In this document: piece after piece, positions 43,749-53,648 of the stretch | Layout: each line of letters begins with the position of its first letter | Position numbering within the stretch: position 1 is the stretch's first letter | Assembly (NCBI GenBank): GCA_021205755.1 | Contig: JAJPWX010000121.1 | Span: 1-62,851 of the forward strand | From: Lachnospiraceae bacterium | GTDB taxonomy: Bacteria > Bacillota > Clostridia > Lachnospirales > Lachnospiraceae | Direction of reading: 5' to 3' | DNA length: 62,851 bases | Translations under genes and position numbers: made by a program | Notes under the pieces: model-generated | Seen by the model: only the letters and a program-made list of their open reading frames with translations | The model's database searches: none | Told to the model about the DNA's origin: nothing

Positions 43749-44390
43749 ATGACGGAAAAAAATGTGCAGGAGCTAAGCCGTGAGGAACTCCTGGGACTGC
43801 TTGCAGATCAGGAAACTGAGATACAGAATTTAAAAACAGAGCTTACGGCCGCGCAGGAGGAGAAGCGCAAACGGTACAAAAAGAAGTACTGGTCGACGCT
43901 GAGAAGTACGATTGCTACGCTGGTTGTCGTAGCGGCGGTGGCGGTGCTGGTGGCGGTATTGCTGCTTCCGGTGCTTCGAATTTACGGAACATCCATGACG
44001 GATACGTTGAACAACGGGGATATTGTGGTTTCTGTAAAAGGCACAGAGGTACAGACAGGCGACATCATCGCTTTCTACTATAACAATAAAATCCTGGTCA
44101 AACGTGTGATTGCCTCAGCGGGCGACTGGGTGGATATTGATGAGGACGGCACAGTCAGTGTCAATGGTGAAGTCCTCGACGAGCCATATGTGACAGAAAA
44201 GGCGCTCGGAGAGTGTGACATTGACCTTCCCTACCAGGTACCCGAAGGGCGGGTATTTGTGATGGGAGATCACCGGGAGGTTTCTCTGGATTCGCGCAGC
44301 TCCTCCGTAGGCTGCGTCGCAGAGGAAGAAATCGTCGGAAAACTGATTTTCCGTGTGTGGCCGCTTGGCGCATTCGGCTGGATCAGCTGA
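43749..44390 (+). CDS. Type I signal peptidase of the pilus operon
   Basis: 213 residues. A coiled-coil-like N-terminus (EELLGLLADQETEIQNLKTELTAAQEEKRKRYKKKYW) is followed by one membrane helix (about 56-76) and the S26 peptidase domain: IYGTSMTDTLNNGD with the catalytic Ser82 and KILVKRVIASAGDWVDI with the catalytic Lys118, then FVMGDHREVSLDSR. Dedicated signal peptidases often head pilus operons (for example SipA in streptococcal FCT loci), acting as processing enzyme or chaperone. Here Ser and Lys are both kept, so it should be active. It is 29 bases from the adhesin gene. Confidence 0.93.
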   Translation: MTEKNVQELSREELLGLLADQETEIQNLKTELTAAQEEKRKRYKKKYWSTLRSTIATLVVVAAVAVLVAVLLLPVLRIYGTSMTDTLNNGDIVVSVKGTEVQTGDIIAFYYNNKILVKRVIASAGDWVDIDEDGTVSVNGEVLDEPYVTEKALGECDIDLPYQVPEGRVFVMGDHREVSLDSRSSSVGCVAEEEIVGKLIFRVWPLGAFGWIS

Positions 44391-49903: not shown

Positions 49904-51484
49904 ATGAAACGGTTGAAAAAACTTTTAGCAGTACTGGTGACGATGATTACGGTGATCGCCATGGCGATACCAGTATCTGTAAGTGCAGCTGGAGATTATA
50001 CGGTGACTATTATACCAAATGACAGTGCTACCCATACATTCACTGCTTATCAGATTTTCAGCGGTACCATATCATCCGATGGAGTGACATTGACGGATAT
50101 TGAATGGGGAAGAGGAGTAAATGGGGCTGCCCTTTTGTCTGCGATAATTGATGCAAATGCAGACTCTACTTCGGGAAATGTCCTTTATAATACGATTACT
50201 GATCCAACCACATTTACATCCGCAGCGGATGTGGCTGATTGGCTTTCAGACAATGCGAATACTGAGGGATTTGCAGAGGCATTTGCAACGCTGGCATTAA
50301 GTTGTTTAGGAACAGCCGCGGGAACAGTAACTGCAGCAGACGGTGATGGATATTACAGAATCACTGGTTTGGATGCTGGCTATTACTTGATTACAGATGA
50401 AGTAACAGGCGGCAATGGAAAGGCATCTGATACGCTTCTTTCGGTCTTGAGTAATGTGACGATCACAGCGAAGTCGGAGCTTCCTTCTGTGATGAAAACA
50501 GCGAATACAGATACAGCCAGGATCGGGGATACAATTACATATACCATTACGGGTACACTAACAGGGGCGAATCTGACGAAAACTCCGTATTCCTATACTC
50601 TGATCGATACAATGGAAAGCTGCCTGGATCTGGTTTATACTTATCCGTCTGGAAATACATCAGATGTGAATGGCGGAGTGACAGTAACGGTAAACGATGG
50701 AAACAACACGTATGATGTAACACAGTATTTCACCATTACTTATGTGACAGATGGCAGTGGAAACCATGTCCTGACGCTCACTTGTGATAATGTAACTTCT
50801 ATGGGTAGCGTTTCAGTATCAAATGACACTGTATTTACGATTACGTATTCTGCAACGGTAAACAGCAATCTTGGTGACGGAAGCATTGAAAACACGGTGC
50901 AGCTGATAACAGAAGAGTATCAAACTCCAGAAATTAAAGAAACCGTTTATGCAATTGACCTAAACATTACAAAGACAGATGGGTCCACAGGCGATGTAAT
51001 CACAACAGGCGCAACGTTTGTGCTGAAGAATTCTAGTGGAGAATATCTGCAAGTCGATACAAACAATAAAGTTTACAAATGGGTAACAGAAAAGGACGAT
51101 GCTTCTGAATTGACAACCGATAGCCTTGGAAAGCTCAACGTTTATGGTCTCTCTGCGGGTACCTACTATCTGGAAGAGATCGTGGCACCGGAAGGCTATA
51201 ATCTGTTGGTAAGTGACCTGACAATCGTGATCACTGCGGCTACGGATGCTTCCACGGGTGAACTGACATCCCTGAAATATACAGTTGATGGCGGAGCATC
51301 TCAGAATGGAACGATTAGCACAACCGGTAATTCTGTTGCTATAACTGTTGAGAACAACCAGGGCGCAACCCTTCCGAGCACCGGTGGCATCGGCACCACG
51401 CTTCTTTACGTGTGCGGCAGCATCCTTGCACTGGTGATTGTGGTTCTGCTGATTACGAAGATTCGTATGAAAGCGGAAGACTAA
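49904..51484 (+). CDS. Major (backbone) pilin, isopeptide type
   Basis: 526 residues. Signal peptide 1-28 (cut near SVSAAG), an N-terminal domain, a fimbrial isopeptide-formation D2-type domain beginning TITAKSELPSVMKTANTDTARIGDTITYTITG (a probable pilin-motif Lys), and a Cna-B/SpaA domain with the E-box YYLEEIVAPEGYNLL. The sorting signal is LPSTGG near residue 489, followed by a membrane helix and RMKAED. Sortase C would link subunits through LPSTG and the pilin lysine. AAAGGAGAAA precedes the ATG. It lies 24 bases after the adhesin and before the sortase, the usual order. Confidence 0.94.
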   Translation: MKRLKKLLAVLVTMITVIAMAIPVSVSAAGDYTVTIIPNDSATHTFTAYQIFSGTISSDGVTLTDIEWGRGVNGAALLSAIIDANADSTSGNVLYNTITDPTTFTSAADVADWLSDNANTEGFAEAFATLALSCLGTAAGTVTAADGDGYYRITGLDAGYYLITDEVTGGNGKASDTLLSVLSNVTITAKSELPSVMKTANTDTARIGDTITYTITGTLTGANLTKTPYSYTLIDTMESCLDLVYTYPSGNTSDVNGGVTVTVNDGNNTYDVTQYFTITYVTDGSGNHVLTLTCDNVTSMGSVSVSNDTVFTITYSATVNSNLGDGSIENTVQLITEEYQTPEIKETVYAIDLNITKTDGSTGDVITTGATFVLKNSSGEYLQVDTNNKVYKWVTEKDDASELTTDSLGKLNVYGLSAGTYYLEEIVAPEGYNLLVSDLTIVITAATDASTGELTSLKYTVDGGASQNGTISTTGNSVAITVENNQGATLPSTGGIGTTLLYVCGSILALVIVVLLITKIRMKAED

Positions 51485-51572
51485 TGAATAACGAACAGGC
51501 TTTTCCTGTGTAATTGCGAAGATTTAGACAGATATGACGAAACGACAGAAAAAGCCGCACGGAGAGGCTGGT

Positions 51573-53648
51573 ATGAAGAAAAAAAAGAGCGGACATATTT
51601 CGACGATTGTATTGATAGTGGGTCTGCTTGTCAGCCTTTCCATGCTGCTTTACCCCACGGTTAGCAACTGGTGGAATTCGCGTCATCAGTCTCAGGGTAT
51701 CGCTTCCTATGTGGAAGCGTCGGATGAGATGGATGCGGCGACCTATCAGGAGATCTGGGACAGTGCGGTGGCCTACAATGAGGAGCTGGCGCAGGACGGC
51801 GTTCGCTGGTTCATGAGTGAAGAGCAGGAAGAGGAATATCTGCAGCAGCTCGATGTGACCGGAACCGGGATTATGGCTTATATTGAAATCCCGGCGATTG
51901 ATGTGACGCTGCCGATCTACCACGGGACAGAGGAGTCTGTGCTGCAGGTCGGCGCGGGACATATCGCCGGGAGCTCTCTCCCTGTCGGCGGGGAGAGTAC
52001 GCACTGCATTATTTCCGGGCACCGGGGGCTGATGAGCGCGGTACTGTTTACAGACCTGGATGAACTCGTAGAGGGCGATATTTTTATCATTTACACGCTG
52101 AATGAGACGCTGACGTACGAGGTGGATCAGATTCGCATCGTGGAGCCGGATGAGCTGGAAGATCTGGAAATCATAGAGGGTGAGGATCTGTGTACGCTGG
52201 TGACCTGTACGCCTTACGGGATCAACAGCCATCGGCTTCTGGTTCGCGGCCATCGCACTGAGAACCGTACCGAGACGCTGGTCACCATGGACGCTACCCA
52301 GATCGATACGACGCTTGTGGCAGGAGTCATCGCCGCGGGGATGCTGTTCTTGCTGATGATTGGCCTGTTAATTGTGACCGTCGCAAAAAGCAGCAGAAAG
52401 TCCCGGGAGCGGAAAGCTGGAGATTTGAAGGCGGCGGAGCAGGCTGAAACTCATGCGCGGGCTCCGGATGAAATGAAGTCGGAAGACGACGGGAAAACTC
52501 TGGAAAAAGAGGAATCAGACGGTGTGGGCAAAGCTCCACGCGAAGAGAAATCGGCAGACACCGAAAATTTGCCGGATGAAGAGAAGCAGAGTGTGCGGCA
52601 GCCGCGGAGACGAAGAAAGGAGGCAGGCCAGATGGAGAAAAAACAAAATATTCTTCGGAGAGGCAGCCGTTCTTCGGCATTCCTTCTGGCGGTGATACTG
52701 ACGGCGGCGCTTCTTTTGACGGCGACGGTTCTGGTTTGCTTCTTTGATTTGTCGGTACATGCAAAAGAGCTTCCGGATCTGGACGCGACAGGCTCCATTA
52801 CGATTGAACTGTGCGACTCTACGACCGGGGATGCGATTGTGGGAGCGACGATGGAATTGTATCTGGTGGCGGCCGCAGAGACGGAAAACGCGGATTACTG
52901 GTGGAGCTACACTGGGGAATTTACTGGGTGCGCTTACTCACTGGGAGACCTTACATCCAAAACGCTGCCGACGGCGCTGGCAGACTATGTGTCAGCGAAT
53001 GACATCAGCCCGCTAGACACGGCAAAGTCCGATGAGGACGGAAACATTGTCTTTGCAGATCTTTCGGTAGGGCTGTATCTGATCGTGCAGACGGAAACGG
53101 CAGACGGATATGAGCTGCTGGCTCCATTTCTTGTGACGGTTCCCCTGGAAAACGAAGAAGACGGGAGCTGGATTTACGATGTAGAAGCGCTGCCGAAGCC
53201 GGGCACGGCGAGTACGGAGACGGAAACATCTGCCCCGGTTGATACGGAAACCGAAGAGCCGCAGACAGGCGAAACGGAGCAGAGTGAGCCGCCTGCCGAA
53301 ACCGAGACGGAAAGCGAAGCGCAGAGCGAGCCGCTCACCGAAAAAGAGACGGAGCATGAAGCGCAGAGCGAATCTCCCGGTGAAACGGATGCAGAGCGTG
53401 AAGCGCAGAGCGAGACACCCGATGAAGCCGTCACGGAAAGTAACACAGAGAGCGAAACATCCGGCGGAACCGGCACGGGAACGGAAGAACAGAGCGGAAA
53501 AACGTCTGAGAGCGATACTTCCTCGACCACAGACGCCGTGCAGACAGGCGATGAAACGCCGCTTGGCAGATGGGTGGCTGTGTTTCTGATTTCAGCGGCA
53601 GTTTTGCTGGTGATGGACGGACGGAACCATCAGAGAAAACAGATATAA
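51573..53648 (+). CDS. Class C sortase fused in frame to a minor pilin
   Basis: 691 residues from ATG 51573 (GGAGAGG upstream; open frame from 51534). Residues 1-280 are a class C sortase: N-terminal helix, catalytic His150 in IISGHRG, Cys212 in TLVTCTPYG and Arg221, then a C-terminal membrane helix. A charged linker of about 70 residues leads without a stop into a second signal/membrane segment after Met354, a SpaA-like pilin domain (ITIELCDSTTGDAIVGATMELYLV) and a Glu-rich stalk. The end has VQTGDETP, a membrane helix and a basic tail. The pilin part has its own ribosome site. Either a fusion or two products from one frame. Confidence 0.88.
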   Translation: MKKKKSGHISTIVLIVGLLVSLSMLLYPTVSNWWNSRHQSQGIASYVEASDEMDAATYQEIWDSAVAYNEELAQDGVRWFMSEEQEEEYLQQLDVTGTGIMAYIEIPAIDVTLPIYHGTEESVLQVGAGHIAGSSLPVGGESTHCIISGHRGLMSAVLFTDLDELVEGDIFIIYTLNETLTYEVDQIRIVEPDELEDLEIIEGEDLCTLVTCTPYGINSHRLLVRGHRTENRTETLVTMDATQIDTTLVAGVIAAGMLFLLMIGLLIVTVAKSSRKSRERKAGDLKAAEQAETHARAPDEMKSEDDGKTLEKEESDGVGKAPREEKSADTENLPDEEKQSVRQPRRRRKEAGQMEKKQNILRRGSRSSAFLLAVILTAALLLTATVLVCFFDLSVHAKELPDLDATGSITIELCDSTTGDAIVGATMELYLVAAAETENADYWWSYTGEFTGCAYSLGDLTSKTLPTALADYVSANDISPLDTAKSDEDGNIVFADLSVGLYLIVQTETADGYELLAPFLVTVPLENEEDGSWIYDVEALPKPGTASTETETSAPVDTETEEPQTGETEQSEPPAETETESEAQSEPLTEKETEHEAQSESPGETDAEREAQSETPDEAVTESNTESETSGGTGTGTEEQSGKTSESDTSSTTDAVQTGDETPLGRWVAVFLISAAVLLVMDGRNHQRKQI
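52632..53648 (+). CDS. Minor pilin translated from an internal start (candidate)
   Basis: 338 residues beginning MEKKQNILRRG at ATG 52632, with AAAGGAGG (52615-52622) nine bases upstream. The first 45 residues form a complete signal peptide (SAFLLAVILTAALLLTATVLVCFFDLSVHA). One Cna-B/SpaA-like domain, a Glu/Ser/Thr-rich wall-spanning stalk of about 120 residues and the TGDETP anchor follow. Its shape is that of a base pilin that fixes pili to the wall (inference). See the fused entry for the whole frame. Confidence 0.65.
   Translation: MEKKQNILRRGSRSSAFLLAVILTAALLLTATVLVCFFDLSVHAKELPDLDATGSITIELCDSTTGDAIVGATMELYLVAAAETENADYWWSYTGEFTGCAYSLGDLTSKTLPTALADYVSANDISPLDTAKSDEDGNIVFADLSVGLYLIVQTETADGYELLAPFLVTVPLENEEDGSWIYDVEALPKPGTASTETETSAPVDTETEEPQTGETEQSEPPAETETESEAQSEPLTEKETEHEAQSESPGETDAEREAQSETPDEAVTESNTESETSGGTGTGTEEQSGKTSESDTSSTTDAVQTGDETPLGRWVAVFLISAAVLLVMDGRNHQRKQI

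Follow-up and report, generated by a model that had tools for sequence, protein, structure and literature searches.

A class C sortase and a minor pilin are encoded by one uninterrupted reading frame in the pilus operon of a Lachnospiraceae bacterium, and a second species, Lachnospiraceae MAG MO.3_6 (G027), in which the frame is read from two pieces, shares the fusion. The sequence features considered here are best explained if the fusion arose by loss of a stop codon and the resulting chain is a precursor that would be cut into a sortase and a probable basal pilin, and if free pilin is made in addition from an internal start; the probability of this reading is put at about 0.5. The pilus operon is otherwise ordinary; it is the arrangement of sortase and pilin in one frame that is new. 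The window referred to below is the whole stretch of DNA that was analysed, 62,851 nucleotides of contig JAJPWX010000121.1 (assembly GCA_021205755.1).

The fused frame and its sortase part

The frame runs from 51534 to 53648 (704 aa), or over 691 aa when counted from ATG 51573, with ATG 51534 as an alternative sortase start, and it contains no internal stop. The first-pass annotation, which had placed a sortase and a pilin in one stop-free stretch at 51573-53648, is thus confirmed. From the N-terminus the frame holds a class C sortase, a second membrane helix, a linker, a signal peptide and a SpaA-type domain, then a stalk rich in Glu and the anchor VQTGD (Table 1). The match to the NCBIfam class C sortase family NF033745 has an E-value of 6.8e-82 and 274.4 bits (cut-off 160); in the fused frame the Pfam Sortase domain (PF04203) spans aa 117-241 and the Pfam SpaA domain (PF17802) aa 420-537, the latter with 31.9 bits (cut-off 23.1). 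His150, Cys212 and Arg221 are presumably the catalytic residues, and the family score and all three positions fit the full class C sortase that had been proposed.

A hydropathy scan of the chain gave four membrane segments, at aa 9-27, 252-270, 370-388 and 663-681. The second is the C-terminal, post-catalytic helix of the sortase (mean hydropathy 2.83), and the third is the signal peptide of the pilin. In class C sortases the active site is covered by a lid, which often carries an Asp-Pro-aromatic motif. No such motif was seen by eye upstream of the catalytic domain, and the fold model of the chain (pLDDT 37.8) is too poor to be read for a lid.

The sortase does not end as a polypeptide of its own, which is the norm of gene structure and not a criterion of the family, since the first stop that it reaches is that of the pilin. 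Because no stop stands between the start of the sortase and the end of the pilin, the sortase can be translated only as the leading part of a chain that goes on into the pilin, unless the ribosome shifts frame or drops off. The computed masses, 75.2 kDa for the chain from 51573 and 36.1 kDa for the pilin from 52632, agree with the products of about 75 and 36 kDa expected beforehand. Antisense to the sortase lies a 266-aa open frame (51453-52253, minus strand of the window), which is presumed to result from codon composition.

Table 1. Coordinates of the features discussed in the text; positions refer to the window unless a locus is given.
Feature	Position	Strand	Basis
Signal peptidase I, first gene of the operon	43749-44390	+	TIGR02227, 121.1 bits (cut-off 47); PF10502
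Large adhesin-like pilin with SpaA domains and C-terminal ELPKTGG anchor, 1819 aa	44420-49879	+	PF17802, two stretches; sequence
Major pilin (isopeptide D2 type), LPSTGG anchor, 526 aa	49904-51484	+	TIGR04226, 49.5 bits (cut-off 30)
Class C sortase part, with N- and C-terminal membrane helices (51597-51653, 52326-52382)	51573-52382	+	NF033745, PF04203, hydropathy
His150	52020-52022	+	Sequence, numbered from ATG 51573
Cys212 (TLVTC)	52206-52208	+	Sequence, numbered from ATG 51573
Arg221	52233-52235	+	Sequence, numbered from ATG 51573
Stop-free linker, 83 codons, charged (Lys, Arg, Glu), predicted cytoplasmic	52383-52631	+	Sequence, codon statistics
AAAGGAGG, Shine-Dalgarno before the internal pilin start	52616-52623	+	Motif scan
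Internal start ATG with the signal peptide of the pilin (third membrane segment)	52632-52763	+	Hydropathy, sequence
Mature minor pilin (candidate): SpaA domain (52791-53144), Glu-rich stalk, anchor	52764-53645	+	PF17802; profile matches to solved pilins
Lys189 of the pilin	53196-53198	+	Invariant in 9 of 9 aligned pilins
Sorting signal VQTGD with hydrophobic segment and charged tail, stop TAA (53646-53648) included	53538-53648	+	Sequence
Double sortase (genomes G579, G631, G658 for L152-L156)	L152:3572-5581	+	
Double sortase	L153:3478-5796	-	
Double sortase	L154:3003-5342	-	
Double sortase	L155:3956-6028	+	
Double sortase	L156:2416-4290	-	
Double sortase, 598 aa (G252, family of the window)	L138:2603-4396	-	Pfam, two Sortase stretches

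The operon and its genome

The genes of the operon follow one another in the order signal peptidase I, adhesin, major pilin, and the fused frame of sortase and minor pilin. The signal peptidase has both a GTSM (Ser) and a VKR (Lys) motif, which we take to hold its catalytic dyad. The major pilin reaches 82.4 bits against NF033902, under the cut-off of 95 for that family. Elsewhere in the genome there are three further class C sortase matches above the family cut-off, two on contig C126 and one on C47; their frames, of 338, 346 and 309 aa, have ordinary stops at their ends.

The joint between sortase and pilin

The linker scores as coding solely in the frame of the sortase, with a codon log-odds of 0.12 in that frame and of -0.13 to -0.50 in the five others. 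A stop-free linker of such composition is not rare, since 4-19% of shuffled or simulated copies were open as well. At the end of the linker, a spacer of 8 bases separates AAAGGAGG from ATG 52632, an ATG in frame with the sortase, and the complete in-frame pilin start that had been described at the joint is therefore present.

The matches to the anti-Shine-Dalgarno sequence at the starts of the operon are GGTG, GGTGA, AAAGGAG, GGAG (AAG for ATG 51534) and AAAGGAGG. The internal start at ATG 52632 appears well formed, since AAAGGAGG is the longest match among the operon starts compared. This sequence stands 4-9 bases ahead of an ATG twice in the window, both strands counted, against 0.20 expected in shuffles, and AAGGAGG with a spacer of 5-10 bases precedes 6 of 2129 ATGs on the two strands.

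A second species with the fused frame

Genome contigs were scanned with six exact peptide patterns, which reach close relatives only, and one organism was found, the MAG G027, with two contigs. Contig L041 ends and contig L042 begins within the joint region, and both are stop-free in frame across the joint, so that the fused frame of G027 is pieced together from two contigs of a draft MAG. The overlap of their ends is 113 bases with four mismatches, three of which are synonymous in the sortase-pilin frame. The Shine-Dalgarno sequence (AGAAAGGAGG) and the ATG are present at the joint as in the window, and the linker has 34 codons, versus 83 in the window. Thus the only close relative found when homologous joints were surveyed, as had been proposed, is fused too. 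Upstream on L041, signal peptidase, large adhesin and major pilin were recognised by eye in the order seen in the window. At a second locus of G027 (L043), three stops lie between sortase and pilin.

Between the window and G027 the sortases are 92% identical over 246 columns, and the pilins 61%. In a quick sortase tree of 87 rows the two form a clade (marked 100*); its branch is long (0.6), and no third sequence stands close to it.

The joint of G027 also bears on the suspicion that an error of assembly or sequencing removed a stop. The genome of the window is in 136 contigs, G027 is a draft MAG, and its contigs end in the joint itself, all of which would suit such an error. However, the window, the end of L041 and the start of L042 are all open at the joint though they differ from one another, and the codon statistics of the linker favour the sortase frame. 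A lone sequencing error is unlikely since the joint is stop-free in G027 as well, and an artefact of either kind is considered very improbable.

Survey of relatives

The searches covered 98 relatives and sets from the genus (47 genomes), family (397), order (344) and phylum (398); these sets overlap and are mostly samples of larger groups, and the results hold among the matches listed. Among 101 distinct class C sortase frames, which were drawn from the best-scoring loci rather than from all matches and among which one gene can appear in partial copies, a sortase that runs into a pilin was seen only in the window and in G027. In two of these frames (L023 and L036) the sequence breaks off at the end of a contig, and the frame of L138 continues into a second sortase. 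From the relatives to the phylum sets, no further sortase-pilin fusion was found among the matches listed. None of the order-level matches listed with frames of at least 444 aa ends in a pilin, the window's own genome aside and as seen in the regions of all except G603 (448 aa). Many, though not all, of the family-level matches with long frames were covered, and no sortase-pilin frame was seen among them; L138 is a double sortase, and in L132 and L133 the frame is open for longer on the upstream side only. A scan of viral contigs gave no sortase-pilin match. In plasmids a coverage of 80% of the query was reached nowhere, and the best match showed no sortase-pilin frame. In the open-licence literature, no report of a natural sortase-pilin fusion was recognised among the matches listed, though one may already have been described.

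Three genomes (G010, G036 and G008; loci L045, L044 and L046) resemble the window in that a sortase is followed by a minor pilin on the same strand and in the same frame. Their sortases have, by eye, a C-terminal hydrophobic segment and a charged tail as in the window, and their pilins are homologous to that of the window (27-39% identity). Unlike in the window, one stop (TAG, TAG and TGA, respectively) separates the two genes, and the pilins end in LPQTG where that of the window has VQTGD. Since such same-frame neighbours with a single stop are a plausible starting state, loss of the stop would be the simplest origin of the fusion. In G010, a smaller frame downstream of the LPQTG pilin looks sortase-like by eye. 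The phase of the frame from sortase to next gene (39:20:23 of 82 for phases 0, 1 and 2) was left unused, as the picker of next genes was crude and some of the genes were not pilins.

It had been suggested that the tie would be a new way to fix the enzyme at the pilus base. The distant relatives examined have separate genes, and tying is therefore no general way of doing so.

The minor pilin

The signal peptide of the pilin was recognised by eye as a hydrophobic segment followed by A/V-x-A, that is VHA|KELPDL in the window and ARA|KELPDL in G027, which places a candidate cut after VHA, between 52763 and 52764. The sequence KELPDLDATGSIT that follows the signal peptide is common to both species.

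A profile was built from nine pilins, a misplaced sortase row (L134) being left out, and it matched solved Gram-positive pilins, namely 4hss (E 8.5e-13) and 7woi (E 1e-06). In all three alignments shown, Lys189 falls on the lysine that the solved pilins have in AYPKN, VYPKN or NPKD, which we take to be the pilin motif of the YPKN type. Lys189 is thus probably the acceptor for the major pilin. With this acceptor and a C-terminal anchor to the wall, the minor pilin is read as a probable basal pilin, at the base of the pilus. The term is a working reading and not a settled membership, since the anchor is VQTGD (53538-53552) in both fused species instead of the canonical LPxTG; in the seven other pilin rows it is LPQTG. 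A change of the anchoring enzyme may have accompanied the fusion.

Fold models were poor for the pilin as well (pLDDT 53.3). Foldseek gave no match at E up to 0.001, and its list, with the minor pilin FctB of S. pyogenes among the weak ranks, is given no weight because of the quality of the models.

Selection or drift at the joint

Both parts of the frame are under purifying selection between the window and G027, with a dN/dS of about 0.06 for the sortase domain (dS 0.73) and of 0.13 for the pilin domain (dS 1.17). The tail behind the sortase is weakly constrained, its dN/dS being 0.61 over 32 codons against L041 and 0.99 over 17 codons against L042. When neutral drift was simulated for the 32 aligned tail codons, the probability that they stay open was 0.24-0.50 at a distance of 0.56; for the whole tail it was 0.27-0.50 with the 34 codons of G027 and 0.03-0.13 with the 83 codons of the window. 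Drift alone could therefore keep the joint open, and the open joint in both species was rejected as a proof of selection on account of these simulations and of the open shuffled linkers.

It is possible, though the balance is judged to lie against it, that the loss of the stop was a harmless accident, without advantage in stoichiometry or placement. The sortase would then work with or without the trailing pilin, and the working pilin would come mostly from the internal start. That the tail is weakly constrained and that the simulations are compatible with chance retention speaks for such an accident, as do the length of the internal Shine-Dalgarno match and the restriction of the fusion to two species among the loci surveyed. 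Against it, the frame survived a net length change of 49 codons between species at a dS near 1, a point to be read with the chance of 1 in 3 that one length change keeps the frame.

Another run-in lies in the genome of the window, on contig C47 (L064:7403-9562, minus strand), where the C-terminal end of an adhesin-type frame with an EMPEAGG anchor leads on in frame, with no stop between, to a minor pilin from the family to which that of the window belongs. The remaining upstream adhesin is in another frame, no Shine-Dalgarno sequence is visible before the ATG of the pilin, and the locus looks like a deletion or a decayed locus. This paralogue indicates that in-frame run-ins can arise by accident and without evident use, and to that extent it favours the harmless accident.

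A proposed precursor, cut into sortase and pilin

In the preferred reading, that of a cut precursor, the stop between neighbouring same-frame genes for a sortase and a minor pilin would have been lost in one small lineage. The chain is predicted to cross the membrane in such a way that the sortase faces outwards, the linker lies in the cytoplasm and the pilin, behind its signal peptide, faces outwards again. Cutting after VHA by a signal peptidase, perhaps that of the operon, would release one sortase (43.9 kDa) and one basal pilin (31.3 kDa before sorting) side by side, while the internal start at ATG 52632 would supply further pilin. Lys189 would then accept the major pilin, and the VQTGD end would be attached to the wall by another sortase. 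The A/V-x-A residues kept in both species are a point for the cut; the point against it is that cleavage of a signal peptide that forms the third membrane segment within a longer chain is an assumption.

The first-pass annotation had proposed two products from the frame, a sortase-pilin chain and a free pilin, and had seen in the former a sortase that stays tied to its substrate. Since the only close relative found shares the joint, the internal Shine-Dalgarno sequence and the ATG, two products are plausible as judged from the sequence. The lasting tie is doubted, because an A/V-x-A site is present in both species and the operon encodes a signal peptidase I that has both the Ser and the Lys motif; cutting at the signal peptide would free the pilin from the sortase. 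If the signal peptide were nevertheless left uncut, the sortase would be linked through a cytoplasmic loop to a pilin that marks or holds the base of the pilus. The single chain and the probable acceptor lysine would agree with this, and other class C sortases are joined by a similar loop to a second sortase domain, which indicates that such loops can be lasting architectures. However, attachment of VQTGD to the wall would leave the pilin bridging membrane and wall, and together with the kept cleavage site this makes a permanent tie improbable.

It is likewise doubtful, but conceivable, that the chain is cut slowly or not at all and that the sortase carries its basal pilin in cis as a starter for a single pilus. 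The major pilin would be received on the lysine of the pilin, and the sortase would be retired once the base had been handed to the wall. The fusion would then be one case of a more general tendency of class C sortases to be linked, by way of the C-terminal helix, with the exported protein that is encoded next in the operon.

To our knowledge, it is not fully explained how a pilus polymerase and its base subunit come together in one place and in the right proportions. If the cut one-chain precursor exists, it would provide sortase and basal pilin as a co-located pair in a ratio of 1:1.

Other sortase fusions and comparison with known systems

Double sortases were found in five single frames of 625-780 aa from stop to stop, all from one genus of family f5, in which two sortase domains are joined by a helix, a loop and a helix. 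By eye, the second copy lacks the TLxTC cysteine in L152, L155 and L156, and it has TLLTC in L153 and L154. In L138, the second sortase domain is presumably of class B, from the appearance of its TLSTCAYEY motif. These double sortases are built like the fused frame: behind the C-terminal helix of a class C sortase, a loop leads without a change of frame to a second exported domain. They differ in that the partner is a second sortase domain without a pilin anchor, whose membrane segment presumably stays uncut. The likeness suggests that the C-terminal helix of class C sortases eases fusion to other exported domains. Among the matches listed from the open-licence literature, no fusion of a class C sortase to other exported domains was recognised, though such fusions may already have been described.

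Two other kinds of long frame were also seen. In L157:490-2088 (plus strand), a BlaR1-type M56 peptidase domain is followed by a sortase domain in one frame, and the usual cysteine is missing by eye (TLITPVPFG). The class C sortases of L158 and L160 (G520 and G581) and of L159 (G655) have C-terminal regions that extend about 150 aa past the second helix; nothing named was found by Pfam at E up to 0.01 in those of L159 and L160.

In streptococcal pilus operons with SipA, the sortase and the basal pilin are separate genes, and in this respect the fused frame differs from them. One report describes these operons as having a signal-peptidase-type protein together with a basal pilin, as in the window (PMC4049620). 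According to the same report, the SipA homologues of S. suis and S. agalactiae have an apparently intact dyad (PMC4049620). The signal peptidase of the window, with its Ser and Lys motifs, is like these homologues and unlike SipA of S. pyogenes (PMC4049620).
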